Shown here: positions 25,559 to 43,088 of the stretch, in pieces
How positions within the stretch are numbered: the stretch's first letter is position 1
Layout: each line of letters opens with the position of its first letter
Assembly: GCA_944373145.1 (NCBI GenBank)
Contig: CALWAL010000006.1
Coordinates: 1 to 64,000, forward strand
DNA from: an uncultured Bacilli bacterium
Lineage (GTDB): Bacteria; Bacillota_I; Bacilli_A; RF39; UBA660
DNA length: 64,000 nt
Reading direction: 5' to 3'
Made by a program: the position numbers and the translations under genes
The notes under the pieces: model-generated
Database searches by the model: none
What the model was told of the DNA's origin: nothing
The model's input: the letters and a program-made list of their open reading frames with translations, nothing else

Positions 25559-28014
25559 TCATCCCCTTCTCCAATATAAAATACACCTGTTTGATTTTCC
25601 ATATAATCTTCCATTCTAGAATTTTTACCAATAACTAAGTATTTCCTTACTGCTACATTTTCTGTTCTAACACCCATATTGTCAGCGCCTAATACTTCTT
25701 CACCATCTCTACTTACATATATTCCTTTATTATTTACTAAATTTTTCATTTCTTCACCAGTTTTTGAAATGTTTAGTCCGTCTTTATCAAAGACAAATCC
25801 CGTTTCTGTCACAACTTTATTAACACCATTTTGTATAATTGATGATATTGAAACAGAGAAATCCAACGCAGTTTGTTGCAACTCAACAATTTGAGACTTT
25901 AATGTATCAATACTCGACTTGTTGTCATTTAATTGTGAATCAATCTCTTCTTTAGTACTATAGTTATTATTCAAATTTTCTTGAATGGAATCAGTTTGTT
26001 CACGAATGTCATTTAATTCATCAGATACTACGATTGCCGTATCAATCCAATTATAGTCATCAAAAATATTAGAATCTACTTCGCTATTATCAACATAAGT
26101 ACCTTGCCAACGGGCAACAATCTTTCCTTCGTTTGCACTAAAATTCTCTCCGTCCTCAGACCATTTTATGTGCAAATATGAATTCAAACCATTAGAACCT
26201 GCTACACCTTGTTGTCCTTGAATACCCTGTATTCCTTGATCTCCTTTAATCTTAGACCATATATATGCACTAGGAGTGGTTGGTGGTGTCGGAGATGTAG
26301 TGTTTGAAACTCCTAAGTATTCGGTTGTTTCAGTTGGGGTTGCTGTCATATCCCTTCCGTCGGAAAAAGTTGAATATCTAATATAAAAATAAGACGATGT
26401 CCCGTCTTCACCAGGTGGCCCTTGTTGGCCTGGAATGCCTTGTGCTCCAGCAGTTGATAATGTTAGATTAATTTGCTTTGTAACTGAATAAGTACTACCA
26501 TCGCTATTGTAATTAAAAATCACATTATAATTATTACTAATATTATCAATAGTTACATTTTTATCAATTGAAAAAATTATCCTAGAGTCGTCAATCTGAG
26601 TCGTTATACCAACATTTGAATCATTAAGCTCAACCGATGGCATTACTTGTTTGCCTTTAAAATAAGCATAAAAATCAACTACATAACTTGCGGTATCCAA
26701 TGGTAATTTATTACTATCTGCTGGTATTGTCATCGTATATTGTGATAAATCGACATTAAAATAGCTTATTGACTCCGCTAATTCTTTAACATTTGTTTCA
26801 GTACTAGAAACAGTTTCCTTAATACCGTTTACATCCAATTCTAGACTAGTATATTTCTCACTTTGTTCTGTTATTTTTGTAGCTTGAGCTGTTAGCTCAT
26901 TTTTTACATGATCTACATCCAATTTTATCGATTCTAAACTCTTTTTGCTGCTACCAGCTAAATTATAATTGGTTTGAGAATTTTGTTGTACTGCTGCGGC
27001 CAATTTTGTATAAATTCTTGCACTTGAAGCTATCTTCAGAATTGTTGTTGAAAAAATATTTCCTTGTTTATCTTGAACTTCAATCTGATCTCCTATGTCA
27101 TATAAGTAGGAATCTACTGCATCAGTTATCTCAAATGGAACAATATACATACCAAGAATTTGTGAAGCAATTGAATCTATCATTTCGGCTTTATTTAAGT
27201 CCACAAAAGGATTGTCATATAATTTCCAATCAAAAAGACCATTCGCTAATATACTTTCTTCATCTTTTTTAACCACGTCATTATTCATGCCTGTGTTTCC
27301 CAAAACTACCGAATTAATAGGTCCAAACATTTTTTCTTTTGATGATAAAGATTTGTAACTTTTTCTTAATATCTGTATATCGGTTTTTACGTTTCTCTCA
27401 ATTCTAACTCCACCTAATCGAGACATTTGTGTATTACATCCGCCTAATGCTCCTGCTGATGCTATTAATTGTCTTTCAGTCGTGGAATTCAAATCAAAAT
27501 TAGGTCTAGTTTCTAAAACTAAATCATAAAAAGGAAATTCAGGTGTTTCTAATATTAATCCTCGTCTCTCAATAATTTCATTTATAAAGAAACCTAATGT
27601 TGTAGGATAAACTATATTATCAAGTCCACCATACGGATTATCAAACACTACAGATTTATCTTTCATTGTTATTTCTATTGTTTTTGCAGTTGAATTCGAT
27701 TTTATTGAATCAGGTGGAGGTATAAATATCCCTTGTGGGATATATTCAATAGAATTATCTTCCAATACTAACCCACGATATACACTTATTTCTTTATTGA
27801 CTACATCAATATTATTTTCACGATTAAAAATAGTTATCTTACACTGTTTTGTAGGAAATTCTCCAATCATTTTACTAGCTTCATGTGATATAGAGGGATG
27901 AGACTTTATAACATCCATCCCTGTATATTCAATACCATCAATTACTATCTTGGTTTTAGGAGTTCTAGAATATTTTTTACTAGCTTTTAAATACGCATCA
28001 CTAGGGATATACAT
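25555..28014 (-). CDS. Tail-tip/baseplate protein with collagen-like repeats
   Basis: An 819-aa protein. The N-terminal 350 residues look like a baseplate hub (YIPSDAYLKASKKYSRTPKTK, PQGIFIPPPD). A coiled-coil, then Gly-X-Y collagen-like runs (GIPGQQGPPGEDG at about 522-534 and GDQGIQGIQGQQGVAG further on) lead to a C-terminal coiled-coil and a VFDKDGLNI-type segment found in tail fibres. The ATG overlaps the previous stop (TAATG) and lacks a strong ribosome site, so it is translationally coupled. Confidence 0.75.
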   Translation of the reverse strand: MYIPSDAYLKASKKYSRTPKTKIVIDGIEYTGMDVIKSHPSISHEASKMIGEFPTKQCKITIFNRENNIDVVNKEISVYRGLVLEDNSIEYIPQGIFIPPPDSIKSNSTAKTIEITMKDKSVVFDNPYGGLDNIVYPTTLGFFINEIIERRGLILETPEFPFYDLVLETRPNFDLNSTTERQLIASAGALGGCNTQMSRLGGVRIERNVKTDIQILRKSYKSLSSKEKMFGPINSVVLGNTGMNNDVVKKDEESILANGLFDWKLYDNPFVDLNKAEMIDSIASQILGMYIVPFEITDAVDSYLYDIGDQIEVQDKQGNIFSTTILKIASSARIYTKLAAAVQQNSQTNYNLAGSSKKSLESIKLDVDHVKNELTAQATKITEQSEKYTSLELDVNGIKETVSSTETNVKELAESISYFNVDLSQYTMTIPADSNKLPLDTASYVVDFYAYFKGKQVMPSVELNDSNVGITTQIDDSRIIFSIDKNVTIDNISNNYNVIFNYNSDGSTYSVTKQINLTLSTAGAQGIPGQQGPPGEDGTSSYFYIRYSTFSDGRDMTATPTETTEYLGVSNTTSPTPPTTPSAYIWSKIKGDQGIQGIQGQQGVAGSNGLNSYLHIKWSEDGENFSANEGKIVARWQGTYVDNSEVDSNIFDDYNWIDTAIVVSDELNDIREQTDSIQENLNNNYSTKEEIDSQLNDNKSSIDTLKSQIVELQQTALDFSVSISSIIQNGVNKVVTETGFVFDKDGLNISKTGEEMKNLVNNKGIYVSRDGEEVLGADNMGVRTENVAVRKYLVIGKNSRMEDYMENQTGVFYIGEGDE

Positions 28015-28412
28015 TAAGCTAATTCATCAGGAATCATTTGTGTGTATCTCAGTTCAATATCATCACAATTAAAATTCTCTGTCCCTTCATTACAAAATAA
28101 TACATGTGCGTCTACTTGATCACTTGCTGGGTACATAATTCTAGTAACTCTACTACGACTCTCTAAATCATAGTAATTAACTTCGCTTTGTTCTTTTTTT
28201 CTTTCAACTAAAATTTCGCTGGCTTCTTCTTCACTCAATTTTTGAAATAAAAATCCCACTTTAACTCTTCGTGGTAACACATCACGAAACATAACATTAT
28301 CATCAGTAGTTCCTGTAGATTCGCTATCAGTTTGTGGATAATCCCACCAAATACCATTGACGGTATATTTTTTTCCGTCAATCAAAATTTCTGTTTTCTT
28401 TAAATCATCCCT
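28014..28412 (-). CDS. Small tail protein; start codon AGG
   Basis: A 132-aa tail protein in the usual slot after the tape measure. In this frame a TGA occurs at 28430-28428; after it there is no ATG, GTG or TTG until a TTG at 28385 that has no ribosome site. The codon at 28412-28410 is AGG, 7 nt after GAGG (28423-28420), with A at -1 (AAGG). Read this way the N terminus is DDLKKTEILIDGKKYTVNG. This is one of four late genes with the arrangement matching the phage CCU-anticodon initiator-like tRNA. If AGG is not used, the TTG gives a 123-aa form. Confidence 0.7.
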   Translation of the reverse strand, partial: RDDLKKTEILIDGKKYTVNGIWWDYPQTDSESTGTTDDNVMFRDVLPRRVKVGFLFQKLSEEEASEILVERKKEQSEVNYYDLESRSRVTRIMYPASDQVDAHVLFCNEGTENFNCDDIELRYTQMIPDELA

Positions 28413-28422
28413 TTTATCACCT

Positions 28423-30996
28423 CTATGTCAACAATGTAATTTTTCCATCAGCAATTTGAGTATCATTTATTTCTTGAATCATATATCTACCATCTGGGTA
28501 TTTATGAATCAGAGTAATCTCTATTCTTTGTACATTTTTTCTATTATTATTAGCTGCAACTGATGCTTTATATGATTGTTCATAAATTTTTGATTCCGGA
28601 GCTATGATTTCTCCTTCTCTTTTGTTATCACCAACAATTACTGGTCTTGGTTTATTTGGTTCAACCCAACCACCTTCTGCTAATCTTGGTAATTCTATTG
28701 GTTTGGACATTTTTAAATTAAAGCCCCACTTTTGGCCACCAATAACAGGCACCCAATCTGGAACATCAAAACTAATCTTATTAATTGCTTTTTTTAAAAG
28801 ATTAAAACCTTCAATCAAAGCATTAATCATACTTTCCACACCACTTAAAATTAAGTTAATTGGAGATGCTATAACTGCACTTAACGTTTCCCATATTCCA
28901 CTAAATATTGATTTTACACCTTCCCAAGCTTTTTCCCAATTCAACGTAAAAATTCCTGTTACAAAATCAATAACTCCAGAGAAAATATCTTTTAAACCAC
29001 CAAATATCTTACCTATTCTAGTGCAAACATTTTCAAATGCCGGCTTCAGATTTTTCCAAAGGAAATCAACAATTGGAGCTAACACATTAGTCCATAAAAA
29101 TTGAGCTACAGTAATAACTCTTTCTACAATTGGAATGACACGATCATTTATAAGGTCTGTTACACCTTCAAATGCAGATGAGAAAACTCCGCCCAAAAAA
29201 TCCGCTAATGGAATTCCCACATTAGTCCATAAAATAGAAAGAGCCTCAGTTAAAATTTTTACAACAGGTTCTAAAACTGAACCAATGAAAGTACCTAATG
29301 GCACTAAAATTTTATTCCACAATTTTTCGAATGTGCTAGTTAATTTAGGAATTACTGTTCCGCCGATATATTCTAAAGCAGGCTGTAATATTTTTTGCCA
29401 TGCATCAATAAATACTGTAGTTATAAAATCTGCAAGTGGAGTCATAATTGTTATAAATGAATTAAATCCATCTATCAAACTAGGAATAATAGTAGTAACA
29501 AATAAATTAAAAATGCCTTGTAACGAATTTACAAATATTCCAACTATTTGATTTATAGAATTTCTAAAACTTTCAGAATTTAAATATAATGCAGTCATAG
29601 CACCTGCTAATAAAGCAACTGCTGCTATAACTGCTAGAACCGGTGCACTAACAGCACCCAATACAGCAGACAATCCTGCAAATGCAGTTTTCGCTACAGC
29701 TGCAACTCCTCCAGCTTTAGAAATTGTTGTTATAAATGATGCAATCTTTATTCCGGTTATTGCTGTTCCTATAGTAACTGCACCACTAGCTACAACGGTT
29801 ACTATAGTTTTCCAGTTCTTAGATACAAATTTTTGACACTTTATAAATGCAGATTGTACCATACCTAAGGAACTTTTTATATTTTCTGCAATCTTTTGAG
29901 CTTTTGGTGAAATTGTATCTTCAGATGATATTTGTGGAATATCCAATCCTGGAACACTAGTCGATGGTGAGCTCTGATTATTGTTTTTAGAATTTTCAGT
30001 GGATGAATCATCATTACTTTTTAATATATTTAATTCATCATAGTTCATAATCGATTTAGCTTTTTTTGCCTTCTTTGATGTAGATTCTATACTGTTTCCA
30101 GCATCAGCTGCGGTAGTTCCCAACGTGCCAAATGCTGAAGAACTATTATTTATGCCTGCTGACATATCAAATCCTAAAACTGACATAACTTGTTTCACAA
30201 TACTGAAGAAGCTTATCATGGCATTCATAGCGCTTTGAATAATTGGGATAAATAAATTAGCTATTGGCATTATCACTTGCCCAATGATTGTTTTTAATTG
30301 CGTAAATGGTGCATTTAATTGTGCAACTCTACCAGAAAAAGTATTTGCATATTTTGCTGCATCACCTGCTTGATATTTTGATTCCTCTAGTATCCCATTT
30401 ACTTCTGCTAATATTTTTTCTTCTTGAGTTAATTCAGCAACCGTCTTACCTTGTGTTTTCGCATAATCTTCCCACATTTTTGCAACATTTTTAGTAACAC
30501 CAGCATTATCTACTAATACTGAATTTTCGTTCTTTAAACCTTCTGTTGCAGATCGTATAGCTTCACCATATTCATATGATGACTGCCTGCCAAATGCTGC
30601 AGAATCTTTTAATGCTAACATTACTTTTTTTATTTGTTCATCATCATATCCTCTAGCTGCTAAATTTTTATATGAAATTACGGCATCACTTAATGGAACT
30701 AATCCATCTTTTATATAATCATTTATAAAACTTTGTGCAACACTAAAACTTCTTCCTTGCCCTTCAACTATTGATTGAAGTCCTAACCATGCGGCTTGAG
30801 ATTGTGCGGCTGTATCAACACATGCTTTACCAAACGATATAATAGCTCCAACAGCAAATGTGCTCGCAATTAATTTACCTATTTTTGAGAATCCTTTTTG
30901 AAAAACATTTTCACTGTTTTTTACAGTTCTTTGTACTTGTGAATTAAAAGCGCCATTATTAAGACTAGCTTTTACAAAAATTTCACCTACATTCCT
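28423..30996 (-). CDS. Tape measure protein; start codon AGG
   Basis: An 857-aa tail length-determining protein. Its N terminus reads NVGEIFVKASLNNGAFNSQV, typical of tape measures, followed by hydrophobic and helical stretches and a C-terminal KPRPVIVGDNKREGEIIAPESK motif. From the in-frame TAA at 31011 there is no ATG, GTG or TTG until residue 126 (30621), deep inside the conserved part. An AGG at 30996-30994 precedes the conserved start, 6 nt after GGAGG, in the context AAAGGAAT. A truncated start at 30621 has no ribosome site and would remove the N-terminal 125 residues. Confidence 0.85.
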   Translation of the reverse strand, partial: RNVGEIFVKASLNNGAFNSQVQRTVKNSENVFQKGFSKIGKLIASTFAVGAIISFGKACVDTAAQSQAAWLGLQSIVEGQGRSFSVAQSFINDYIKDGLVPLSDAVISYKNLAARGYDDEQIKKVMLALKDSAAFGRQSSYEYGEAIRSATEGLKNENSVLVDNAGVTKNVAKMWEDYAKTQGKTVAELTQEEKILAEVNGILEESKYQAGDAAKYANTFSGRVAQLNAPFTQLKTIIGQVIMPIANLFIPIIQSAMNAMISFFSIVKQVMSVLGFDMSAGINNSSSAFGTLGTTAADAGNSIESTSKKAKKAKSIMNYDELNILKSNDDSSTENSKNNNQSSPSTSVPGLDIPQISSEDTISPKAQKIAENIKSSLGMVQSAFIKCQKFVSKNWKTIVTVVASGAVTIGTAITGIKIASFITTISKAGGVAAVAKTAFAGLSAVLGAVSAPVLAVIAAVALLAGAMTALYLNSESFRNSINQIVGIFVNSLQGIFNLFVTTIIPSLIDGFNSFITIMTPLADFITTVFIDAWQKILQPALEYIGGTVIPKLTSTFEKLWNKILVPLGTFIGSVLEPVVKILTEALSILWTNVGIPLADFLGGVFSSAFEGVTDLINDRVIPIVERVITVAQFLWTNVLAPIVDFLWKNLKPAFENVCTRIGKIFGGLKDIFSGVIDFVTGIFTLNWEKAWEGVKSIFSGIWETLSAVIASPINLILSGVESMINALIEGFNLLKKAINKISFDVPDWVPVIGGQKWGFNLKMSKPIELPRLAEGGWVEPNKPRPVIVGDNKREGEIIAPESKIYEQSYKASVAANNNRKNVQRIEITLIHKYPDGRYMIQEINDTQIADGKITLLT

Positions 30997-31361
30997 TTCG
31001 ACCCTCCTTTATAAAAAGCGCTTTTCATAGATTCTTGGAATAATCGAAGTTTTTCCTTATATTCTTTTTCACTCATTGATGCTATTTTTTTCTTATTTTG
31101 TATTCTTTTCCATTCATCATATACCTTTTTTTCTTCTTTAGTAAATTGTTTGATTTTTTTGATATCTTTTTCAGTTCTAATACTAATTATCCGAACTAAT
31201 GGAGTATCACCTGTTAACCCACTAAAGAGTCTCTTATATTCACCATACGATATATCTTCAATTGATAACCTTATACCATATTGCATAGCAAAACTGGATT
31301 CAATAAGATGCCAATCTAAATCAATATCATATCCAATATCATCTTCTACGTGGGTTATTGG
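30987..31361 (-). CDS. Tail assembly chaperone, C-terminal part made by -1 frameshift
   Basis: The -1 frame continues from the slippery site through ITHVEDDIGYDIDLDWHLIE and LSIEDISYGEYKRLFSGLTGDTPLVRIISIRTEKD to a stop at 30987. This is the Gp15/gpT-like part of siphovirus tail assembly chaperones. A free ATG exists at 31286 but has no ribosome site. Joined to the upstream frame, the fusion would be about 238 aa, required in lambda-like phages to load the tape measure for tail tube assembly. Confidence 0.8.
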   Translation of the reverse strand, partial: PITHVEDDIGYDIDLDWHLIESSFAMQYGIRLSIEDISYGEYKRLFSGLTGDTPLVRIISIRTEKDIKKIKQFTKEEKKVYDEWKRIQNKKKIASMSEKEYKEKLRLFQESMKSAFYKGGSKGM

Positions 31362-31702
31362 TTTTTTTCTACTGCTTCTTTTATCTTATCGTATTCTTCT
31401 TCTTGAATAGCCGCCATTACAAATAATGACAATTCTTTTGTAGCTTTAACTGATAAATCCATTTTATCAATCTCTTTCATTTGCTCTTTGTTTAATGCTA
31501 ACAATAGTATTTCTCTTTCATAATCAACATCCACTTTTGGTGCTGTTGTCATTTCATTTGATAATTTTTGAATTTTTTTATACGTAGATTGTCTGTTATC
31601 GACTACAAAAATAACTGGTTTTCCTTCTTTATTCATAAATGTTATTTGTGGAAAATTATCCCCAGTTAAAATTTTTCCACTCGCATCATAAGTTTTTGCC
31701 AT
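31355..31702 (-). CDS. Tail assembly chaperone, zero-frame product (gpG-like)
   Basis: A 115-aa, mostly helical protein directly downstream of the major tail protein, the standard place for the gpG-like chaperone. It ends in EAVEKNQ, whose codons carry the slippery heptamer. Start ATG with AAAGGA about 10 nt upstream. A fraction of ribosomes should shift -1 to make the longer fusion product. Confidence 0.85.
   Translation of the reverse strand: MAKTYDASGKILTGDNFPQITFMNKEGKPVIFVVDNRQSTYKKIQKLSNEMTTAPKVDVDYEREILLLALNKEQMKEIDKMDLSVKATKELSLFVMAAIQEEEYDKIKEAVEKNQ
31361..31367 (-). promoter_or_regulatory. Programmed -1 frameshift slippery site A_AAA_AAC
   Basis: On the minus strand the zero frame reads GAA AAA AAC CAA TAA. 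The heptamer A AAA AAC is in the correct phase for simultaneous slippage, and the stop follows one codon later. The -1 frame opens into the second chaperone segment. Confidence 0.85.
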
Positions 31703-31766
31703 AAATTAAAATTCCTTTCTTATATAAAAAATAAGGGAGACAAACGTCTCCCCAAATAACTACATT

Positions 31767-32213
31767 TTATTCAGCAGCTGCTACTGTATATACAGGTTCA
31801 CCGTCTGATAAAATTTCAGCTTCTAGTGAATTTGGAGCTGTAGAATCTCCACCAAATGGTGTAGTAACATTTACAACACAATCAAATTTTAGTGAATCAC
31901 CATTTGGGAAAACAATTTCAAAGACAGAATTAACGTCTTGACCACTTTTGAATGCTAAACCAGCAACATAATCATTTCCTGGATCACCATAATTTCTTTT
32001 TCCACTTAACGAAACACTAAATGCTTTAGCGGTCATTAAACGTCTAACCCAACCATGTTGGTCTAATGGATTCCACTCTTCAACTCCTCCGTCAATTGAA
32101 GAAGATAAACTTTCCATATCTTTAATGATTAGCATATCAGTTTCTTCTGAAGTTCTACCATTTGTTCCAATTTTAAAATCTAAATCATAAGTTGGTATTA
32201 CCCCTAAATTCCT
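31767..32213 (-). CDS. Major tail tube protein; start codon AGG
   Basis: A 148-aa tail tube subunit: NLGVIPTYDLDFKIGTNG, then WNPLDQHGWVRRLMTAKAFSVSLSGKRNYGDPGNDYVAGLA and a C-terminal LEAEILSDGEPVYT, the conserved pattern of Gram-positive siphovirus tail proteins. From the in-frame TGA near 32230 there is no ATG, GTG or TTG before codon 27 (32135), and that ATG has no ribosome site. The AGG at 32213-32211 lies 7 nt after GAGG and directly precedes the conserved N terminus, again in AAGGAAT context. Confidence 0.88.
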   Translation of the reverse strand, partial: RNLGVIPTYDLDFKIGTNGRTSEETDMLIIKDMESLSSSIDGGVEEWNPLDQHGWVRRLMTAKAFSVSLSGKRNYGDPGNDYVAGLAFKSGQDVNSVFEIVFPNGDSLKFDCVVNVTTPFGGDSTAPNSLEAEILSDGEPVYTVAAAE

Positions 32214-32215
32214 TA

Positions 32216-32611
32216 TTATCCCTCTCTTTCATAATAAAGGTCGATTTCTAATGAATATTCTTGTATTCCATTATCATCAGTTCCCAAATTAATTGGATTT
32301 TCAAAGCAATGCTTAAAACTTACTTTTTTATTTCCAATTACAGTTTTTTTATTGTCAAAAAATTTATATAACTCATTAATTACTTTTTCGGCTTCGGTTT
32401 GATTCATACCATAACGTATTAAAACTGTTAATGGTTTAACTGAATATGTTGATAACTGTAGATTGTTTATTGGTGAAATATTCCTTTTAGAATTATAAAT
32501 ACATAATGTATTTTTTAAATTATTATCAATTTTATTAATACTAATTCTAGGAAATAACGATATATTGAAATAATTGATTTTGAACCAATCTCTAACTTCA
32601 CTTAATAGCAT
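32216..32611 (-). CDS. Tail completion / minor capsid protein (DUF6838-like)
   Basis: A 131-aa protein in the head-tail connector block just upstream of the major tail gene. Visible features: LLSEVRDWFKINYFN at the N terminus and IQEYSLEIDLYYER at the C terminus. AAAGGA precedes the ATG. The family role, closing the tail end, is by position and length. Confidence 0.7.
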   Translation of the reverse strand: MLLSEVRDWFKINYFNISLFPRISINKIDNNLKNTLCIYNSKRNISPINNLQLSTYSVKPLTVLIRYGMNQTEAEKVINELYKFFDNKKTVIGNKKVSFKHCFENPINLGTDDNGIQEYSLEIDLYYEREG

Positions 32612-32612
32612 A

Positions 32613-32978
32613 TCAACTTAAATCCTTTCTCATAAATCTTGCGAAAGTAATACGCAAAAACATTTTTTTATTTCCTGTTATCCAAGGTGCAAACCATTGA
32701 CCTTGAGCATTTGCGTTTTTTTCTTTTCTAAAATTATACTCTGGGTGAAAATATATCTTTCTTGCATATGGTGTATCGACTTTTAACAAAACATACTTTT
32801 TCGCATTTTTGTCATCAATAAACATACTTCTATTTTGCATTTGACCAGTATCAAATGGCATTACCTGTGAATTAACTACATCTGTTTTTAAAGCATCCAC
32901 TGATTTTATCAAATTTTTTATCATCTTTTGCTCAAGTGAAGATAAATTTTTACTATTAATTTTAGAATATACTTTCAT
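32613..32978 (-). CDS. Minor capsid protein (Minor_capsid_2-like) head-tail connector
   Basis: A 121-aa protein with MPFDTGQMQNRSMF, TPYARKIYFHPEYNFRKEKN and QWFAPWITGNKKMF, the pattern of the second minor capsid connector in Gram-positive siphoviruses. GAGG precedes the ATG, which overlaps the previous stop. Confidence 0.8.
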   Translation of the reverse strand: MKVYSKINSKNLSSLEQKMIKNLIKSVDALKTDVVNSQVMPFDTGQMQNRSMFIDDKNAKKYVLLKVDTPYARKIYFHPEYNFRKEKNANAQGQWFAPWITGNKKMFLRITFARFMRKDLS

Positions 32979-33325
32979 TACATTACCTCTAAATTAGTAC
33001 TGTAAATTGTTCCATCTGGGTTTCTTGGTCTACTACATGAATATATATCTAGTTCCTTATCAGCAATAAAAACTTTTCCTGACTTAATCTTCGGTAATAA
33101 AGGTGCAATATCACCTTTAAGTATAATCTTTCCAATTAAATCAACTCTTGTACCATCAGTATCTATAATTCTTTTACTTTTTTCGCTAAAAATACATCTA
33201 TCTTCCACTGTACCTATAACTATTGGTTCTCCATCTTCTGTTAGCCCAGAATCATAAAGTTCTATCGTACAATTAACATTTAGCAACCAGTCCGGAAATG
33301 GTATCTTTTTTACATTTTTTGCCAT
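32978..33325 (-). CDS. Minor capsid protein (Minor_capsid_1-like), head closure
   Basis: A 115-aa beta-rich protein with DWLLNVNCTIELYDSGLTEDGEP and YSCSRPRNPDGTIYSTNLEVM, matching phage minor capsid protein 10/head-closure type. The ATG overlaps the stop of the connector upstream; coupling expected. Confidence 0.8.
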   Translation of the reverse strand: MAKNVKKIPFPDWLLNVNCTIELYDSGLTEDGEPIVIGTVEDRCIFSEKSKRIIDTDGTRVDLIGKIILKGDIAPLLPKIKSGKVFIADKELDIYSCSRPRNPDGTIYSTNLEVM

Positions 33326-33699
33326 TATAATATACCACTCATCAATCCTGTTGGCTTTAAACTAGAATAAGCCATTTCAGACATATCTAGTCGTGATGCT
33401 ATTGTATCTGCTTTTCCAACTGACACATTTATGTCAATAACACTATAACTAACAATATCGCTAGTTTCTACACCATTTTCATAAATGTAATTAGCCTGAA
33501 AGCATATAGCTTCTCTCACTTTTTCTTGTTGAAATTTTGTTAATTTGTCAAAACCAACTTTAACAATTCTATAATATGTTATATCATCAATTTTTCGACT
33601 AGCTAATATTAGACTTCTACTAATTTCTTCTTCATCACTAATAATTTTTTCCCCAATAAAACTATTTTGATAATAATCTATATCAGCATATGATTTCAT
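33325..33699 (-). CDS. Head-tail connector (gp6-like adaptor)
   Basis: A 124-aa, helix-rich protein starting SYADIDYYQNSF, with a central KFQQEKVREAICFQANYIYENG, in the place of the adaptor that binds the portal ring. GGGAGG precedes the ATG. Confidence 0.8.
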   Translation of the reverse strand: MKSYADIDYYQNSFIGEKIISDEEEISRSLILASRKIDDITYYRIVKVGFDKLTKFQQEKVREAICFQANYIYENGVETSDIVSYSVIDINVSVGKADTIASRLDMSEMAYSSLKPTGLMSGIL

Positions 33700-33717
33700 A
33701 CAACCACCTCCCAGCGG

Positions 33718-33903
33718 TTATTTAACTTTATTTGAGCTATTTTCTTCTTCGGTTGGGGAATTTACTGTAACTGATGTTTTTGCTTTAATATCGGCCTTTT
33801 TTTCATCAATTTTAGTGTAATTTTTATCGTCAGTTAATTTTTTGATATTATCTAACGTATAAACTTCACAAATTCCACCTTTTTTATTTCTAAATTTTGC
33901 CAT
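33718..33903 (-). CDS. Small phage protein between capsid and connectors
   Basis: A 61-aa basic then acidic protein (FRNKKGGICEVYTLDNIKKL). Similar short ORFs near capsid genes often encode decoration or assembly factors; I cannot assign this one. GGAG about 10 nt before the ATG. Confidence 0.6.
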   Translation of the reverse strand: MAKFRNKKGGICEVYTLDNIKKLTDDKNYTKIDEKKADIKAKTSVTVNSPTEEENSSNKVK

Positions 33904-33905
33904 AA

Positions 33906-34205
33906 TTATTTAGCTCCTTTTTTCTTTTCAGATTCTTCTGAAGTTAATACTTTATCTTTCAATTCAGCAATTTCCGCATTCTTTTCTTCTAACTCAGTTT
34001 CTAATTTAGAATTAGACTCTTTCAATTCAGCAATTTCCGCATTCTTTTCTTCTAACTCAGTTTCTAATTTTTCATAGTCAGCTCTAGAAACTGTTTCTCC
34101 AACAGTCTCTTTTTCACCAACTACCTTGTATCCTTGAGCTCTATAATAATCTAATTCTGATTCAGGAACTGAAATAACGATATTATTTTTAATAATTCTT
34201 TTCAT
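33906..34205 (-). CDS. Coiled-coil phage protein with internal duplication
   Basis: About 99 aa: an N-terminal globular part (RIIKNNIVISVPESELDYYRAQGYKVV) followed by a repeated coiled-coil unit KLETELEEKNAEIAELK found twice. The 50-bp exact DNA repeat shows the duplication is recent. The ATG at 34205 follows GGAGG. Position directly behind the capsid suggests a head-associated role. Confidence 0.65.
   Translation of the reverse strand: MKRIIKNNIVISVPESELDYYRAQGYKVVGEKETVGETVSRADYEKLETELEEKNAEIAELKESNSKLETELEEKNAEIAELKDKVLTSEESEKKKGAK
33958..34070. repeat. 50-bp exact direct repeat, 63-bp period
   Basis: 33958-34007 and 34021-34070 are identical and in frame (21 codons), encoding the two coiled-coil units. 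Confidence 0.9.
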
Positions 34206-34229
34206 TTCTTTTCCTCCCACCAATCGTTA

Positions 34230-35171
34230 TTAAACTTCAGTATATTCAGTTGTATCTGTATCTACATATACTGAATCGATTTTTCCATCTTTTCCATTTG
34301 GGAAAGTGAAAACGTCCATTAATTTTCTATCTTGATATAAATATCCATCACCTTCGGTATGAGCGCCTGGATTGAAATAATAAATACTAGAAATCTTTGG
34401 TACTGTCTTTGTTGTTAATGGTGAAGCTAATAATACATTAATAGCTTTAGATCCTTCTATTTCATCTGCTTTCGCTACTGGTTTAAATCCTTCTGTAAAA
34501 TCAAATTTATCATAGAATCTTTCATCATCAATTACTTCAAAGATATATACTCCATCGATATTTGTTACACGTGTTTGAATAGATAAACCACTTTCATTGA
34601 TTTGAGTCATCTCAATTTTTCTAGTAAAATCTTTTGATTCTTCTAATAAATCCATAATAAATGAACGAACATACATTAATAACGCACCTTGTGCTTTGTA
34701 TCTACGTAATTTACCTGCATTAATCATACTTTTTAACTTACTAAATACATTCTCCTTAGTCCAATCAGCTTCAGCTGTTTCACTATGATATCCTTCTAAT
34801 TTTTTAGCTGTTGCAGCTACTTTAGAGAAGAAATAAGCATCTGTCTCTGGTGCTGATTGAGTTCTGTCAAATGTTTTAGCAACATTTTGAATAGATGCAG
34901 TCTTATTAGTTTCATCAACATCAGCTACATCTACTAAAAATTCAATATCTCTATCAAATTCTAATGTGTATGGATGATCAGTTTGTTTAAAATTTCCTCT
35001 GTTCCATCCACCTTGTCTATTATGTGTTTTATATCCTGATGTACTCATTTGAGTAAAATGAAATGTTTTTGCATCTAACCATCTTACATTTGTTGTAATA
35101 AATGGTGATGTTAGTGTCTCTTGCATTAAAATTTCTAATAATTCTGGAGACCATTGTTCAGCATAATTCCT
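34230..35171 (-). CDS. Major capsid protein; start codon AGG
   Basis: A 313-aa capsid subunit: NYAEQWSPELLEILMQE at the N terminus, TSPFITTNVRWLDAKTFHFTQMSTSGYKTHNRQGGWN, TLEFDRDIEFLVDVADVDETN. Homologues of this family begin MNYAE. Here the codon in the Met position (35171-35169) is AGG, 8 nt after GAGG (35183-35180), preceded by A. Between the in-frame TAA at 35195 and AGG there is no ATG, GTG or TTG; the first ATG (35126) is 15 codons in and lacks a ribosome site. Scaffold ends 24 nt upstream, in another context, so fusion is ruled out by that TAA. Confidence 0.92.
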   Translation of the reverse strand, partial: RNYAEQWSPELLEILMQETLTSPFITTNVRWLDAKTFHFTQMSTSGYKTHNRQGGWNRGNFKQTDHPYTLEFDRDIEFLVDVADVDETNKTASIQNVAKTFDRTQSAPETDAYFFSKVAATAKKLEGYHSETAEADWTKENVFSKLKSMINAGKLRRYKAQGALLMYVRSFIMDLLEESKDFTRKIEMTQINESGLSIQTRVTNIDGVYIFEVIDDERFYDKFDFTEGFKPVAKADEIEGSKAINVLLASPLTTKTVPKISSIYYFNPGAHTEGDGYLYQDRKLMDVFTFPNGKDGKIDSVYVDTDTTEYTEV

Positions 35172-35195
35172 TAATATTACCTCTTTTCCTTTTTA

Positions 35196-35876
35196 TTATC
35201 TAAATCTATTCCATCTTTTTACAGATGAAGTATTTTCTTGAATTTTCCCAGTATCTTGTTTACCATCAGAACCAAATTTAAATCCTTTATTCGTGTTTTC
35301 TTCGCTCTTTTTCTTAAACTCGGGAAACTCTTTAAGGAGTTTATCAACTTCAGCTTTCATTAAATCATTATCGATATCTCCTTCTTCATTTAATACACTA
35401 GTTGTGCTAATCATTCTAACCGCTCTAGCAATTTTTGATGGTTCTACACCTTCATGCATTAATGAATTTTCTAATAAAGCTGATACTAATAAATCATTTT
35501 TTTGACTGATTACTTTGTCTTTTTCAGATAAACTATTCGTTAATTCGTTAGTCTTATCCTCAGCAGTTTTATTCTTTTCTTTTTCAGCTCGAGCATTTGC
35601 AAGAATACTTTTTGCTTCTTCAATGTCATCAATCCCTAAATCTTTCATTAGTTTCTTTGTTGCTTTATCAACATTCTTTTTACTGATATTATTTACATCA
35701 TCATCAGTATATTTTTTTTCTGGTTCACTTTTTTGTTCACCATTATTACTATCCCCACCATTATTTTCTTCACTTTGTGCTTTTTCGCCATCTTTTCCAT
35801 CCTCTGAAGATTCTGCAAAAAGTTGAATTCTTAACGGTAATAGCTTTGTTGTCTTTTCTAAGTTTTCACGATTCAT
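35196..35876 (-). CDS. Capsid scaffold protein (DUF4355-like)
   Basis: About 226 aa, highly charged and coiled-coil (EEAKSILANARAEKEKNKTAEDKTNELTNSLSEKDKVISQ), with the typical N terminus LPLRIQLFAES and a short basic tail SVKRWNRFR that would bind capsid. The ATG at 35876 follows AAGGAGTGATAAA; the frame's upstream ATG does not. It directly precedes the capsid gene. Confidence 0.85.
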   Translation of the reverse strand: MNRENLEKTTKLLPLRIQLFAESSEDGKDGEKAQSEENNGGDSNNGEQKSEPEKKYTDDDVNNISKKNVDKATKKLMKDLGIDDIEEAKSILANARAEKEKNKTAEDKTNELTNSLSEKDKVISQKNDLLVSALLENSLMHEGVEPSKIARAVRMISTTSVLNEEGDIDNDLMKAEVDKLLKEFPEFKKKSEENTNKGFKFGSDGKQDTGKIQENTSSVKRWNRFR

Positions 35877-35943
35877 TTTATCACTCCTTTTTCTATTCCT
35901 GGATAAGGTCATCCATTTTCCCTGTTATTCGAACTCAGGCAAA

Positions 35944-35968
35944 CAAAAAAGAACATAGTAATATGTTC
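35944..35968 (-). terminator. Terminator hairpin at the 3' edge of the structured RNA
   Basis: On the minus strand GAACATA, loop TTAC, TATGTTC, then TTTTTT (35950-35945). It stands 68 nt before the scaffold start, so late mRNA must read through it or restart. Confidence 0.7.
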
Positions 35969-36324
35969 TCGATTAGTATCTTAATAGATACTACTCTAAT
36001 GATATAAACTAATACCCAAATTATTGGACTAGGATAGTTCGTATTCCAACTATACATATATCATCAGAGTACTAGCTATTAACTAGTACATAGCTATATG
36101 GGTTTTATTATGAATGTGTGCTTTATAAGCACTGTACCAATGATATATAGGAGCTCCACTATCCATAGGCACATTTATTTCTAAATGTCGGATATATCAT
36201 CAGTACACTACCTATAAAAGATAGTGTATAAAATTTGGCATTTAGCATAAACTATAATATAATGTAATTGTAATTACATTTGAGGTTAGTCCTTGCCCGC
36301 TGGGGCGAGGGTTAGCCTCTTTTT
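35944..36324 (-). ncRNA. Large structured RNA candidate in the head operon
   Basis: A 381-nt gap with no ORF but dense base-pairing. Perfect hairpins: 35975-35992, 36034-36053, 36069-36089, 36118-36132, 36171-36188 (GAAA tetraloop on the minus strand), 36205-36227, 36261-36280. Two matching long-range helices repeat the same design: 35995-36006 with 36057-36068 (11 of 12 paired) and 36134-36148 with 36192-36206 (13 of 15 paired), both built from TGATGATATA-like strands. A GC-rich helix (36282-36319) caps the 5' side. The minus strand is preferred because it is co-directional and gives a GNRA loop. No family assigned; ornate phage RNAs such as ROOL or GOLLD are the nearest idea. Confidence 0.65.
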
Positions 36325-36326
36325 TT
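36282..36326 (+). terminator. GC-rich hairpin with plus-strand T tract
   Basis: GAGGTTA (36282-36288) pairs with TAGCCTC (36313-36319), enclosing CCTTGCCC (36291-36298) with GGGCGAGG (36303-36310). Seven T follow on the plus strand. It is by far the most GC-rich stretch of the region. On the plus strand it is a textbook terminator; on the minus strand it is the 5' helix of the RNA candidate. Confidence 0.6.
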
Positions 36327-36492
36327 ATTTTTTATTACGTTTAGCTTTTAATTTTTTTAAATCTTCTTTCCATTTTTTAGCTTGTTCCTCTGCCCATTTT
36401 TTTTGTTCTTCAGTTAATTTAACATTTGTCGCTATAACCTTTGCTCCTGGGTTTTGATTCCATCTAGGATTACTAAACAATTTATCAGACAT
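36325..36492 (-). CDS. 55-aa basic phage protein
   Basis: The ATG at 36492 overlaps the stop of the MuF gene (TAATG) and has GAGGTG upstream. It encodes a Trp- and Lys-rich helix (WNQNPGAKVIATNVKLTEEQ then KKWAEEQAKKWKEDLKKLKA). Small ORFs of this kind behind MuF genes could act as an immunity or packaging factor for a fused toxin; not proven. Confidence 0.6.
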   Translation of the reverse strand: MSDKLFSNPRWNQNPGAKVIATNVKLTEEQKKWAEEQAKKWKEDLKKLKAKRNKK

Positions 36493-37982
36493 TATGACAC
36501 CTCTTCTAAGTCTATTTTAACATAGAAATCATCAGATGTATCTACATGTATAACTTGAAATTTACTATTTCTTTTAAAAAGTATTTCTTTTTCTGTATCA
36601 TTGTACTCTGTTAAATCTTTTCCTTTTTTACTTTTTATAGACATTTGAACTCTAGCTTCAGGATTATATATATCACCTATAGTCGTGCTAGTATAAGATT
36701 TTAATTCTACAATATTACCTATTTTATAATCCTTCATAAAATAGTCAATATCCTCTTTATAAATAAATACACTTCTAGTAACATTACCTTCATAATTTTT
36801 CAGTTTATCTAATGCATTATCTAAATCACTAATTACTTTAGTTAATCTTTCATCAAGTACATAATCATTTCTTAATGCATCATTTATAACATAAGCATCT
36901 GGGCCTACATAAGTACTAATCGCATATTCTTCATCAGGTGTTAACATATTTTGTTTTCTTTGCTCCCATTTTTTTAATTTGTCATTATAATAATTTAGAT
37001 TATTTTCATCTAGTGAACCTGTTTCTAATCTTTTAAATCTTTGAATTTGTAAATTATAATAATTTAGATCATCTTGATACTGTTTTAATGTCTCTTCGGT
37101 AGGTCCATTTTCATCGAATTCAATATCTTCCAATTCAGGATAATAAGTACTTAATCCATGTTCACAGTTAGGATGATACAACCCCTGAGCCATTGCATCG
37201 CTTAATAAAGGATAGCTTCCATCTTCTTTAGTTCCTCCACTGTAAACATCGTCTATTAAAACTTTACCCTCCCATACTTGGCATAGCTCACAAGCAGTAC
37301 CATGTTTGCTAATAAAGACTAATGGATTACCTATTTTCTTTCTAAATTCTCCTTCTCCTTGAAGTTGAGCTCTTTGATTCGCTGTTCTTATTGCCATTTT
37401 TGCATAACTAGCTATGTTGACTCTACGACCATTCTTGTACTCAATACAATTAATTCCTTTATTTAGAAAATCTTTTATTGCTATATCAAACGATTGTTTT
37501 TCGGTCATAACTCCATTAGCAGCAAACATAGTAGCTTTATAAATGACTTGTCTATATTCATCATTTATCATTCTTAAAGCTGCTTGATTTGCTATTTTCA
37601 AGTCATTATTGACATCATTTATTAAATTAGATACTTTTCTATCATTTATACCAAAAAAGCTCTTATTGAGCTTTCTATCATATTTATATCCATTTTCCAA
37701 AGCTCTTCGAAATTCTCGTTGAGCTTTTTTATTTCCTTCACGAAATTGCTCTTTTAATAGTTCTTTTACTTCATCACTTATTGGATTAGTATAAGTACCT
37801 ATTATATTAGCATTTTCTCTTTGATATCGTTTTAATTCTTTTAATTTAATGGCCTGCCACTGTTCCCAATTAAATCCTACTTTAATTTCTTCCTTCATAT
37901 GTCTAGAAAGATTTCTTTTCATAGAGCTAATTAAATGAAGTTCCATTTCTTGATATATTTTGCTAATATCATAGCCATTCAT
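36492..37982 (-). CDS. MuF minor head protein fused to ADP-ribosyltransferase
   Basis: A 496-aa protein. Residues about 1-280 are a MuF/SPP1 gp7-like head protein with a C231-x2-C234 ... H270-x2-C273-x-H275 metal motif. After a linker, residues about 345-496 form an ADP-ribosyltransferase exoenzyme domain: R403 in TRSVFIY, YTSTT (430-434) and the ExE motif E464-K-E466. MuF fusions of this sort place a toxin inside the virion for ejection with DNA. AGGAGAATAATTC precedes the ATG. Confidence 0.85.
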   Translation of the reverse strand: MNGYDISKIYQEMELHLISSMKRNLSRHMKEEIKVGFNWEQWQAIKLKELKRYQRENANIIGTYTNPISDEVKELLKEQFREGNKKAQREFRRALENGYKYDRKLNKSFFGINDRKVSNLINDVNNDLKIANQAALRMINDEYRQVIYKATMFAANGVMTEKQSFDIAIKDFLNKGINCIEYKNGRRVNIASYAKMAIRTANQRAQLQGEGEFRKKIGNPLVFISKHGTACELCQVWEGKVLIDDVYSGGTKEDGSYPLLSDAMAQGLYHPNCEHGLSTYYPELEDIEFDENGPTEETLKQYQDDLNYYNLQIQRFKRLETGSLDENNLNYYNDKLKKWEQRKQNMLTPDEEYAISTYVGPDAYVINDALRNDYVLDERLTKVISDLDNALDKLKNYEGNVTRSVFIYKEDIDYFMKDYKIGNIVELKSYTSTTIGDIYNPEARVQMSIKSKKGKDLTEYNDTEKEILFKRNSKFQVIHVDTSDDFYVKIDLEEVS

Positions 37983-37985
37983 GAA

Positions 37986-39509
37986 TTATTCTCCTACTAC
38001 CTCATTATTAACACTTGGTTCCTTTAACTCGGCAATACCTTTTTCTTCCTTTATTCTAGATACTTCATCTTTTTTCCATTCTTTATCTTTAGTATCTCCC
38101 CACAGTTCTTCTACTTGAGCTTCAATACTCATCGTATTAGTAGTTGCTGCTTTACCTACTGTTTCGATTTGAGCTTCAAAAGATGGATTAGCATATTCAC
38201 CAAATTGAATATCTATTTCATAGTTATCTGGAATATCAATTGATTCCGATTCGTTTATAGTCATTAATGATATATCATAAACTTTTAAGGCTGTGCTTAA
38301 TACTTCTTTTAAAGTTTCCTGCAAAGAATCAATAATTTCATCTCTCGTATATAATGTTGTTTTTTCTTTTTCTCTTTGTGCTTCTGCATTATCTAATTTT
38401 TTTGAATCTATCCCTAAAGTACTTGGACTTACTAAACCTTGTAAACACAAATCCAAAGCCGTAATATATGTTTGAAGTAGCTGCTCAGCGGGAATTTCTC
38501 CCTGTGTTGTTTTTATTTCATTTTTATCAGATTCTTTATTAGACGATTCAATTGCAATAAATTTATTATCAAAAGAATTAGGTTTCATTAGTGCTCCAGT
38601 TTCCGGATCACGTGGTATTAAGTTTTCAGGAATATATTGATTCATTCTTCCTGTCCTAGTTGCTTCTATCCATTGAGACCAAACTTCATCAAAAGAGTCG
38701 AAAGCACCTTCTTTTCCATCAAAGATTGATTTTCCTCTTTCTTCCCATTTAGGAGATTCATCTATCATAAAAGGTACTGCCATTAAAAATTTTCCAGGAT
38801 TGTCAACATCATCGATATCTTCTAAATCAGAAGATGTTTTTATATCATATTTTTTACCCTCTGCATCAACTAATTCGTTACGAATTCCATCTTTAGTATA
38901 ATGTTCTTCTAAAAAATATTCTTTAGAACCTATTATTTTTCTAGTACTAAATATAATATCCTCATATCTACCACGTTTTTTTATAAATTTAACTCTATCA
39001 GACGGATAAAATTCAATGATAGGATATTTGCTAATTGAAGTATCCATACTTATTTTAAAAGCCCCATCACCTAAATACAATGTTTTAGTTAATGCTTTTT
39101 TAACTAATTTTTTAAATTTGTTTTCTTTTAATATTGCATCAAGAATTTCCTGTTTATCATTTTTAATTATATTTCCTTTTTCATCTTTTTTATCTTTTTC
39201 AACTGTTATTCCATCCATATTATTAATAACTACTTTTACTAAAATTCTAACAATTAAAGATGGCAATCCTGTGTGAATTTTTCTAATAGTTAAACCCTTA
39301 CTAGGTTTTGCAGCCCAAAAGGAAGTATTTCCTATTCCATCATCTTTTTGTGTATAAAACTGATGCAATTCACTAGCATCACCCCTATACCAAATAGTAT
39401 TTTTTGCTAAATTACCTTCATAAGTATAAGGTTCATGAACTACTATAGTAGTATTATTTGTTTCTTGTATATCTAACCATCTTTTTATCATGTTTTTAAA
39501 CACTCCCAT
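37986..39509 (-). CDS. Portal protein (SPP1 gp6-like)
   Basis: A 507-aa portal. Typical features: YRGDASELHQFYTQ near the N terminus, a long central domain with WSQWIEATRTGRMNQYIPENLIPRDPETG and a late LDNAEAQREKEKTTLYTRDEIIDSLQ helix. It forms the dodecameric DNA channel. The ATG follows GAGGTGAATTCATAG and the terminase stop. Confidence 0.92.
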   Translation of the reverse strand: MGVFKNMIKRWLDIQETNNTTIVVHEPYTYEGNLAKNTIWYRGDASELHQFYTQKDDGIGNTSFWAAKPSKGLTIRKIHTGLPSLIVRILVKVVINNMDGITVEKDKKDEKGNIIKNDKQEILDAILKENKFKKLVKKALTKTLYLGDGAFKISMDTSISKYPIIEFYPSDRVKFIKKRGRYEDIIFSTRKIIGSKEYFLEEHYTKDGIRNELVDAEGKKYDIKTSSDLEDIDDVDNPGKFLMAVPFMIDESPKWEERGKSIFDGKEGAFDSFDEVWSQWIEATRTGRMNQYIPENLIPRDPETGALMKPNSFDNKFIAIESSNKESDKNEIKTTQGEIPAEQLLQTYITALDLCLQGLVSPSTLGIDSKKLDNAEAQREKEKTTLYTRDEIIDSLQETLKEVLSTALKVYDISLMTINESESIDIPDNYEIDIQFGEYANPSFEAQIETVGKAATTNTMSIEAQVEELWGDTKDKEWKKDEVSRIKEEKGIAELKEPSVNNEVVGE

Positions 39510-40862
39510 CTATGAATTCACCTCGACTCCTATTTTATCGTTATATGGAATCCATCCATATTGACTTGCATTTATTGTATGATCATTACCATCTTCTGGT
39601 TCATCTTTATTAGGTTTCCATGAATACTTATTATGTTCAGCTATATGATTAATGCAATGAGATAATATCAAATACTTACCTCTAGCTAACCAACCATTTT
39701 CCAGGTTGATTCTGTTTATAATTGTGATAGTTTTCCAAGACGGTATAAAATTATAAATTACACCATTTTTTCTCTTGTGCTTTATTAATTCAGCCATAGT
39801 TCCACTATCTGCATTATCAACAAATACATCCTTGATAGTAATTGTGCTATTACACCATTTTTCTCGACAAACATCTAAGAAATCGCATAATACTTGTGCT
39901 ATATCACTAGGACTAACAATTTCTTGATCGCTTCTACCTTTGTTTGTAATTACCATTTCTTCAAGTACTATCCATTCAGTGTAATTTGTCAAACCACCAA
40001 AAATAAAAGAGATAGTATCATCACTTTCTCTTGAATAACTTGTATCTACTCCACAACTGAACTTTAAAAATTTCAAACCTTCTTTAATCCTATTTCTCAA
40101 ATCCAGTTCAGAAATGACGCTATGTGGCATTAGTCTTAATAATAAACCTACACCTTTAGTTCTTCTACCTTCAATTTTGGTTTTATATTGTTTCGTACCT
40201 GGCGGTTGTGATACGAGTAATGCAGCTCTCCTTTCAGCTGTAAGACTCGCATTATCGTCAAAAGTAAAAAACCAATAATGCCAATCCTTGACAGGTATCT
40301 CTCTATTTAATTCTTCCCACATATAATTAGGAACACTATTTTCAAGCTCTGGTATCGGTCTACATCTATTAACTAATTCCTTATATATATCTAAATCTGG
40401 ATTATCAGGATTTAATGTCGCTATTAAATATTCAAATCTAGGCAACATCATTTCTCTAACAAATTCCATATTTGCTATATTAATTTCATCTATTCCAACA
40501 CAACCAAATTGTCCACCTAAAACTTTTTTAAATTTAGCTATGTCAGAATATCCACATATATACACTATTTTGTCTGCAATTTTTAAATGTGGCAATCTTA
40601 TCTTACCCAATCCATTTGGATAGTATTGAATTTCATCTCCCCATAAATCAAGCAAACCATTTTCATTGTTTATTATATGAGCTTCTACAGTACCAATTGA
40701 TTCTCCTGCTATTAGATGCTCTTGCTTAGAGGATTTTTTTACCTCTATTACATATTTTAAGCCAAATCCTATAGTAGTCTTACCTGCAAAGGTCGTCCCT
40801 TCTAATACATCTACTATAGAATCCGACATTAACAATAATTCAAATTTTTCACTTATCTGCAT
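39510..40862 (-). CDS. Terminase large subunit
   Basis: A 450-aa packaging ATPase-nuclease. Walker A-like EGTTFAGKTT at 21-30, Walker B CVGIDEINIA, motif III ATLNPDNP, and nuclease acidic residues in CGVDTSYSRESDD and VDNADSG. It overlaps terS by 14 nt and has no strong ribosome site, so translation is coupled. Confidence 0.93.
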   Translation of the reverse strand: MQISEKFELLLMSDSIVDVLEGTTFAGKTTIGFGLKYVIEVKKSSKQEHLIAGESIGTVEAHIINNENGLLDLWGDEIQYYPNGLGKIRLPHLKIADKIVYICGYSDIAKFKKVLGGQFGCVGIDEINIANMEFVREMMLPRFEYLIATLNPDNPDLDIYKELVNRCRPIPELENSVPNYMWEELNREIPVKDWHYWFFTFDDNASLTAERRAALLVSQPPGTKQYKTKIEGRRTKGVGLLLRLMPHSVISELDLRNRIKEGLKFLKFSCGVDTSYSRESDDTISFIFGGLTNYTEWIVLEEMVITNKGRSDQEIVSPSDIAQVLCDFLDVCREKWCNSTITIKDVFVDNADSGTMAELIKHKRKNGVIYNFIPSWKTITIINRINLENGWLARGKYLILSHCINHIAEHNKYSWKPNKDEPEDGNDHTINASQYGWIPYNDKIGVEVNS

Positions 40863-41530: not shown

Positions 41531-41607
41531 TGGTTGCAGGAGACGGATTTGCACCGTCGTTCTTTGGTTAAGGAGACCAACGAGTTAACTAACTACTCTA
41601 TCCTGCG
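41531..41607 (-). tRNA. Initiator-like tRNA with anticodon CCU (reads AGG)
   Basis: A 77-nt cloverleaf with encoded CCA. Initiator traits: C1xA72 mismatch, G2:C71, C3:G70, A73, A11:U24, D-stem GAGU/ACUC, 5-nt variable loop, and G29:C41 plus G30:C40 in the anticodon stem (31:39 is U:A, so two of the usual three G:C pairs). The anticodon loop is CUCCUUA: anticodon CCU at 41573-41571, with U37 instead of a purine. Odd elbow: U19 and G55 replace G19 and U55. An elongator tRNA-Arg(CCU) would not normally carry C1xA72 or A11:U24. The charging enzyme is uncertain: C35/U36 favour ArgRS, A73 and the acceptor stem are Met-like. Confidence 0.88.
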
Positions 41608-43070: not shown

Positions 43071-43088
43071 ATAAATACTTCTATTCCT

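Follow-up and report, generated by a model that had tools for sequence, protein, structure and literature searches.

The window analysed here, a 64,000-nt stretch (positions 1 to 64,000 of contig CALWAL010000006.1) of the 1.29 Mb genome of an uncultured Bacilli bacterium, harbored an integrated prophage, and clusters of host tRNA genes were found on the same contig. Late genes of the prophage were encoded on the minus strand in the order terminase small subunit, terminase large subunit, portal, MuF, scaffold and capsid, followed by small head-tail open reading frames (ORFs), the major tail protein, two small tail ORFs, the tape measure protein, a gene of family phrog_1194 and tail proteins. 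Four of them, coding for the major capsid, major tail, tape measure and phrog_1194 proteins, displayed an AGG codon at their predicted start, and an initiator-like tRNA with the matching anticodon, CCU, was encoded by the same prophage (Table 1).

Table 1. Prophage features in the window: predicted AGG-start genes and their Shine-Dalgarno (SD) sequences, the tRNA, and other late genes.
Feature	Coordinates	Strand	Details
Major capsid protein gene	34230..35171	-	predicted start AGG 35171-35169; phrog_422, E 2e-75; 61 relatives
Capsid SD core GAGG	35180..35183	-	8 nt before AGG
Major tail protein gene	31767..32213	-	predicted start AGG 32213-32211; phrog_820, E 3e-40; relatives with ATG
Major tail SD core GAGG	32221..32224	-	7 nt before AGG
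Tape measure protein gene	28423..30996	-	predicted start AGG 30996-30994; phrog_1535, E 1e-62; L034 orthologue also AGG
Tape measure SD AAAGGAGG	31003..31010	-	6 nt before AGG
Small gene after tape measure, phrog_1194 (function unknown; tail by position)	28014..28412	-	predicted start AGG 28412-28410; phrog_1194, E 5e-12
phrog_1194 gene SD core GAGG	28420..28423	-	7 nt before AGG
Initiator-like tRNA, anticodon CCU	41531..41607	-	ARAGORN; 77 nt, encoded CCA, anticodon loop CUCCUUA (U37)
Terminase small subunit gene	40849..41352	-	ATG in window; PF03592
Late genes with ATG: terminase large, portal (phrog_533), MuF/minor head (phrog_581), scaffold (phrog_2303), small ORF	35196..40862	-	start table, families
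Gene directly upstream of tRNA(CCU)	41767..42246	-	Mga helix-turn-helix below cut-off; phrog_10157, function unknown

In each of the four genes, all open under translation table 11, the segment from the preceding stop codon to the AGG was free of in-frame ATG, GTG and TTG. The first internal ATG, GTG or TTG was located at 35126 (capsid), 32135 (major tail), 30621 (tape measure) and 28385 (phrog_1194 gene, TTG). A preliminary description of this DNA had stated that the four genes lacked a usual start codon at the conserved N terminus and carried AGG 6 to 8 nt after an SD sequence, and that terminase, portal, MuF and scaffold genes kept ATG; all of this was borne out, ATG being kept by both terminase subunits.

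Relatives fixed the predicted AGG start position for three genes, and the SD sequence together with one orthologue fixed it for the phrog_1194 gene. Capsid relatives were found at 61 IMG/VR loci; 57 of them displayed ATG, and another TTG, no more than ten codons ahead of the aligned NYAE motif, two others displayed AGG (L034 and L035), and one contig began inside the gene. L034 and L035 were one phage, identical over 9,700 bp, with L035 cut off before the tRNA position. A capsid match was present in 9 of the 385 genomes of the host's order, counting the genome that contains the window; all 7 readable starts among the nine other places were ATG, and no changed initiator-like tRNA was present in the stretches of these relatives examined. 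Major tail relatives (45 loci, 30 distinct contexts once 15 duplicates were removed) harbored an ATG 0 to 15 codons upstream in 28 of 30 contexts, the exceptions being L046 (ATG only 3 codons downstream) and L035 (AGG). Seven of the 16 tape measure relatives aligned only further in; the other nine displayed ATG (6) or GTG (2) within 3 codons, or AGG (L034). Just two relatives were found for the phrog_1194 gene (L034 and L048), and members of this family elsewhere started with AGG in L281 and AAG in L286. Internal ATG starts for the AGG genes were rejected on the start positions of relatives and of the four genes themselves.

The separately assembled L034, whose capsid was 81% identical, displayed AGG at the same four genes and additionally at the terminase small subunit gene (phrog_51), and carried its own CCU initiator-like tRNA, in line with the co-occurrence proposed earlier. 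Among relatives without such a tRNA in the stretches examined, many of them contig fragments, AGG was found at the capsid start in 0 of 58 readable viral sequences and 0 of 7 from the host's order. The truncated L035 was the only AGG relative found without the tRNA.

The phage tRNA reading AGG, also reported in the preliminary description, was located at 41607-41531, outside the region 28410..35171 to which that claim had been tied. Its cloverleaf was complete (z -2.8) with positions 1 and 72 unpaired (C1xA72 mismatch), and included the pairs A11:U24, G29:C41, G30:C40 and U31:A39. Passages of two papers describe the 1x72 mismatch as governing formylation, with a contribution of 11:24 (PMC11231383, PMC11497404), and a passage of the latter describes G29:C41 and G30:C40, both present in the window tRNA, as the pairs touched by the 30S head (PMC11497404). 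The window tRNA shared with the host tRNA-fMet (L001) the 1x72 mismatch, A11:U24, A73, the encoded CCA, the length of 77 nt, G29:C41 and G30:C40, and differed from it by CCU for CAU, U37 for A37 and U31:A39 for G31:C39. Of the features of bacterial initiators, it had the 1:72 mismatch, found also in the altered tRNAs listed below except in L235 and L295 (T1:A72), and the purine 11 : pyrimidine 24 pair, which was A11:U24 here and in each altered tRNA listed; its anticodon was CCU instead of CAU. The paired 1:72 and pyrimidine 11 : purine 24 of elongator tRNA-Arg(CCU) were both absent from it, and the host's own Arg-CCU (G1:C72, C11:G24) had neither initiator mark. The two marks were combined in the CAU initiator alone among the 33 distinct host tRNAs seen, and in 11 of 437 non-CAU tRNAs of control and scan loci (eight changed initiators, one of them UAA, two Glu tRNAs and one odd-loop tRNA, L196). 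In the L196 tRNA, typed CUU, positions 1 and 72 were mismatched and the anticodon loop, ATCTTCC, was unusual. Identity over the whole tRNA did not discriminate, being 71% both to the host's initiator and to one of its Pro tRNAs.

The tRNA could instead be an ordinary elongator Arg tRNA serving a rare codon, with AGG either read by the normal initiator or not used as a start. ARAGORN indeed typed it Arg(CCT), and phages often carry elongator tRNAs, but its unpaired 1x72 with A11:U24 occurred in no elongator among the host tRNAs seen, and the start codon tracked the anticodon across phages (see below). Codon compensation was likewise rejected on the tRNA marks, on the Arg-CCU that the host already owns and on nearly equal AGG usage (3.1 per 1000 codons in the prophage vs 2.6 in the host). 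The elongator explanation thus appeared very improbable. Recoding of stop codons found no counterpart either, no suppressor anticodon being present among the window's three tRNAs.

Codons at SD spacing near ORF starts were counted with duplicates removed by identical context and 59 contigs as controls. AGG accounted for 16 of 150 such codons in phages with a CCU tRNA, 0/240 in CUU phages, 0/33 in UAU phages and 9/904 in controls (Fisher p 9e-9, CCU phages vs controls), as well as 1/280 across 260 kb of the bacterial genome that harbors the prophage (p 3e-7, CCU phages vs host). AAG was found at 26 of 240 positions in CUU phages (4/150 in CCU phages, 1/33 in UAU phages, 16/904 in controls), and ATA at 7 of 33 in UAU phages (10/150 in CCU phages, 10/240 in CUU phages, 20/904 in controls). 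A caller blind to the tRNA, weighing AGG, AAG, ATA and ACG alike, was run with duplicates removed by identical N-terminal peptide and 66 control stretches. It called AGG 18, AAG 1, ATA 4 and ACG 1 times in 68 ORFs of CCU phages, and AGG 1, AAG 27, ATA 8 and ACG 0 times in 94 ORFs of CUU phages; in the UAU phage, 6 of 13 ORFs were called with ATA. The same four codons were called 9, 13, 16 and 3 times in 491 control ORFs and 1, 5, 4 and 0 times in 177 host ORFs. Among the records, L283 and L284 were one phage and L290 overlapped L297.

The start codon therefore followed the anticodon of the phage's own initiator-like tRNA, as CCU/AGG, CUU/AAG and UAU/AUA. Starts made by the normal initiator at GTG, TTG and rare other codons are similar in that a non-ATG codon follows an SD sequence, but they require no dedicated tRNA, whereas here the codon was not independent of the tRNA content of the phage. 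The claim of the preliminary description that the start codon was reassigned to AGG by means of a tRNA of the phage itself is strongly supported by the initiator marks and by this agreement of codon and anticodon in other phages.

Orthologous genes displayed different start codons in different phages. The caller used for orthologues and cognate starts favored each phage's own codon, so that it shows sites and not independent counts. The terminase small subunit gene started with ATG in the window vs AGG in L034, in almost the same sequence context. Portal (phrog_533), capsid (phrog_10) and MuF-like genes displayed ATG in L096 and AGG in L281, and phrog_533 portals altogether ATG (window, L096), AGG (L281), AAG (L284) and ATA (L291). 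A blastp cluster of portals started with AAG in eight CUU phages, and AAG was called in CUU phages for the terminase small subunit (seven), capsid (six), major tail (five) and tape measure (four). Cognate starts were called 66 times in 15 phages; 47 of these calls had no in-frame ATG, GTG or TTG upstream, and 17 of the 66 lay directly after a stop codon, including seven of the eight CUU portals. A pair of small genes, AAG in L270 and AGG in L281, was dropped as evidence, both having an in-frame ATG upstream. Among 20 cognate-start proteins compared to PHROGs, which were hand-picked among the calls and do not form a random sample, 14 belonged to packaging or virion families, four were of unknown function (phrog_1194, phrog_3099), one was unmatched and one was exonuclease-like, likely a false call.

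Such a distribution bears on the possibility that the tRNA, while starting these genes by the same mechanism, is a self-preserving element that can no longer be lost once one essential gene has switched, its codon spreading by drift with no regulatory benefit. The switched genes indeed differed by phage (terminase small subunit, ATG in the window and AGG in L034) and the codons were single substitutions of ATG; however, packaging and virion proteins predominated among the 20 tested and the tRNA kept its place ahead of the late genes. This origin was considered rather unlikely.

Changed initiator-like tRNAs were found in further phages with anticodons CCU (for AGG), CUU (AAG), UAU (AUA) and CGU (ACG), each of these codons being a single substitution of AUG at position 2 or 3. 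In an IMG/VR scan for initiator acceptor stems, the 80 stretches listed, of at least 120 matching, encoded mostly CAU initiators and some other anticodons. A pattern requiring U37 retrieved tRNAs with CCU, CUU and UAU from viral contigs; the anticodons retrieved from bacterial genomes were CUU, CCU and CGU. U37 was not exclusive to them, as 12 CAU initiators with U37 were found in the same, biased sample; CAU initiators with U37 for A37 occurred in phage contigs and bacterial genomes (L254, L274, L220, L225 and others). Two scans for non-CAU initiators with A37, in which only the first two anticodon positions were tested, yielded 4 stretches each, the tRNA-typed ones being UAA and UAU; initiator-like UAU tRNAs with A37 were present in L126 and L214. 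Several initiator tRNA copies lay close together in Marinomonas rhodophyticola (L273), their anticodon being untypable by ARAGORN owing to an extra loop base. The CGU phage L096 encoded its initiator-like tRNA at 2216-2289, and its tape measure gene at ~13610 read ACG-DGSIKIETKID after AGGAGG; the proposed ACG/CGU pairing rests on this one gene, by inspection.

Searches with sequences of the CUU phages and with the window tRNA were unproductive. Among 40 of the 84 phage records listed as similar to the CUU tRNA, plus one record similar to the window tRNA, seven unannotated ones were opened and each had an ordinary CAU tRNA; the other listed records were in part judged by their tRNA-Met label. 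The CUU-phage capsid had one remote relative among phage records, and an IMG/VR scan with the CUU-phage portal returned 4 loci, all of them CUU phages already in the set. ATG relatives of this portal were about 33% identical and mostly aligned from residue 24, which does not fix the start position.

The same mechanism could also benefit the phage by letting virion synthesis go on when the normal initiator tRNA is destroyed by toxins or defences of the host. Both the anticodon and position 37 were changed in these tRNAs, and a passage of one study reports that phages avoid encoding tRNA-fMet where VapC targets tRNA-fMet (PMC10264068). Other late genes and early genes of the same phages nevertheless kept ATG and would remain exposed if the normal initiator were attacked, and this benefit was considered unlikely.

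The tRNA preceded the packaging and virion genes and shared their strand. In 10 of 11 CUU records a gene with an AAG start began 22-25 nt after the tRNA (33 nt in L270), and this gene was the terminase small subunit where tested (L284, L286). In L281, AGG was called 25 nt past the tRNA, at a site with an ATG upstream in the same frame; the window and the remaining CCU records displayed ATG or TTG as the first start detected behind the tRNA. A promoter scan around the tRNA detected 7 candidates vs 6.6 expected by chance. The late transcript itself is the probable source of the tRNA. The base preceding the start codon (position -1) was A in 37 and T in 6 of 49 cognate starts, vs A in 38 and T in 36 of 89 ATG starts from the same phages (p 3e-4 and 5e-4). 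U37 could pair with this A, making a four-base contact with the codon; the idea of such pairing at -1 leans on what Esposito is said to have reported in 2003.

Several observations weigh against reassignment of the start codon. The three G:C pairs at 29-31/39-41 of bacterial initiators were incomplete, with two of three in the window tRNA and 0-2 in the others, often with U31.G39. The tRNA-blind caller took AGG for two of the four window genes and ATA, with a longer SD match, for the capsid and major tail genes, so that AGG at these two rests on homology and on L034. An in-frame ATG, GTG or TTG upstream made the start ambiguous in 19 of the 66 cognate calls; it was mostly a GTG three codons before AAG, in or next to the SD sequence, as in most CUU terminase small subunit genes. 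False hits of the caller included the window gene 42771-43088, which surely starts with ATG, and probably an exonuclease-like gene in L227. A was absent at -1 in 12 of 49 cognate starts. The four UAU records shared one tRNA sequence, ATA thus resting on one phage type, and the head gene of the UAU phage had an ATG two codons before the ATA. Strong SD sites in the stretches examined of phages with UAA (L115, L295) and ACU (L294) initiator-like tRNAs were not followed by the cognate codon, as counted before duplicate removal. In L096, ACG was found only at the tape measure gene, whose frame is broken further on, portal and capsid started with ATG, and the blind caller assigned ACG to 0/9 and AAG to 1/9 ORFs.

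The broken frame of the L096 tape measure and the false calls, along with the window being one contig of an incomplete genome, might suggest an artefact, through sequencing error, decay of the prophage or misplaced starts. Against this, the four window ORFs were intact, the same four genes carried AGG in the separate assembly L034, and different codons matched different tRNAs elsewhere, leaving an artefact a practically negligible probability.

Taken on sequence grounds, these phages very probably use a second initiator tRNA of their own to start virion genes at a reassigned codon, with translation predicted to begin at AGG in the window. The tRNA(CCU) would be transcribed together with the late genes, charged by the synthetase matching its anticodon (with Arg in the window, and Lys, Ile or Thr in other phages), formylated to some degree through the 1x72 mismatch, and brought into the P site as a second initiator, where it may pair over four bases, A-1 plus the codon. 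Charging of a tRNA with a CCU anticodon by MetRS is not expected. Arginine is predicted by analogy with anticodon-mutant initiators charged by the synthetase of their anticodon, which, according to a passage of one report, start at UAG with Gln (GlnRS) and at GUC with Val (ValRS) (PMC2268962).

Such a tRNA could act as a lock that holds key virion genes off as long as the late genes, the tRNA among them, are not switched on, which would set a translational layer atop late transcription. AGG should be a poor codon for the ordinary initiator, and translation of the four genes would thus have to await synthesis of the phage tRNA. That this lock is the purpose of the tRNA appeared about evenly balanced. 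The position of the tRNA gene, in front of the late genes, makes plausible the earlier proposal that virion synthesis depends on it and is silent in the lysogen and in foreign hosts. The reading as a whole, in which start reassignment is natural and repeated (CCU, CUU, UAU and CGU, with U37/A-1 as a fourth base pair), virion proteins would begin with Arg, Lys, Ile or Thr and not Met, and virion genes would be locked to the phage tRNA, was given a probability of roughly 0.55.

Apart from two oddities, the remaining late genes in the start table of the window displayed ATG. The first start codon of gp105 was TTG, closely followed by an ATG that has an SD sequence in front of it. Only an internal ATG was present in the second small tail ORF, which probably arises by frameshift. 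At 30987-31705 (minus strand), between the major tail and tape measure genes, two ORFs overlapped, the second lacking a start, and the first ended at a run of A, like tail chaperone genes made by frameshift. The C-terminal part of the MuF/minor head protein (36492-37982, minus strand) matched an ADP-ribosyltransferase-like domain (PF03496, above cut-off with E 3e-8; phrog_15144 weakly). A non-coding stretch with recurring short motifs, possibly a structured RNA, separated a small ORF from the scaffold gene (35930-36320). The weakly helix-turn-helix-like product encoded directly upstream of the tRNA could be a late regulator.

Some phages reassign stop codons with suppressor tRNAs, their late genes being most affected. 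In both cases a phage tRNA alters the meaning of a codon, but there a stop becomes a sense codon in elongation, whereas here a sense codon would gain a second meaning as a start. Laboratory initiators, reading UAG or GUC as described above, or AAG with CUU, a pair that a passage of one paper counts among those working in engineered systems (PMC13232202), likewise combine an initiator body with a new anticodon and start at the matching codon; those were engineered, whereas the phage ones are natural, phage-borne and accompanied by target genes with the matching start codon. Searches of the open-access PubMed Central literature, with subscription papers and most preprints lying outside their reach, found engineered initiators of this kind and no description of a natural phage initiator tRNA with a changed anticodon. 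Within that limit, a start signal reassigned through an additional initiator tRNA that the phage itself carries would be a new kind of genetic-code change.

In bacteria, and for gene callers, AUG means start, with GUG and UUG read by the same tRNA. With a private initiator tRNA, the meaning of "start" could be altered for individual genes, and the first amino acid would probably differ as well. Such a tRNA would account for capsid and tape measure genes that annotation would cut short, would add a new layer of late-gene control, and would offer naturally evolved pairs of initiator tRNA and start codon for protein engineering.

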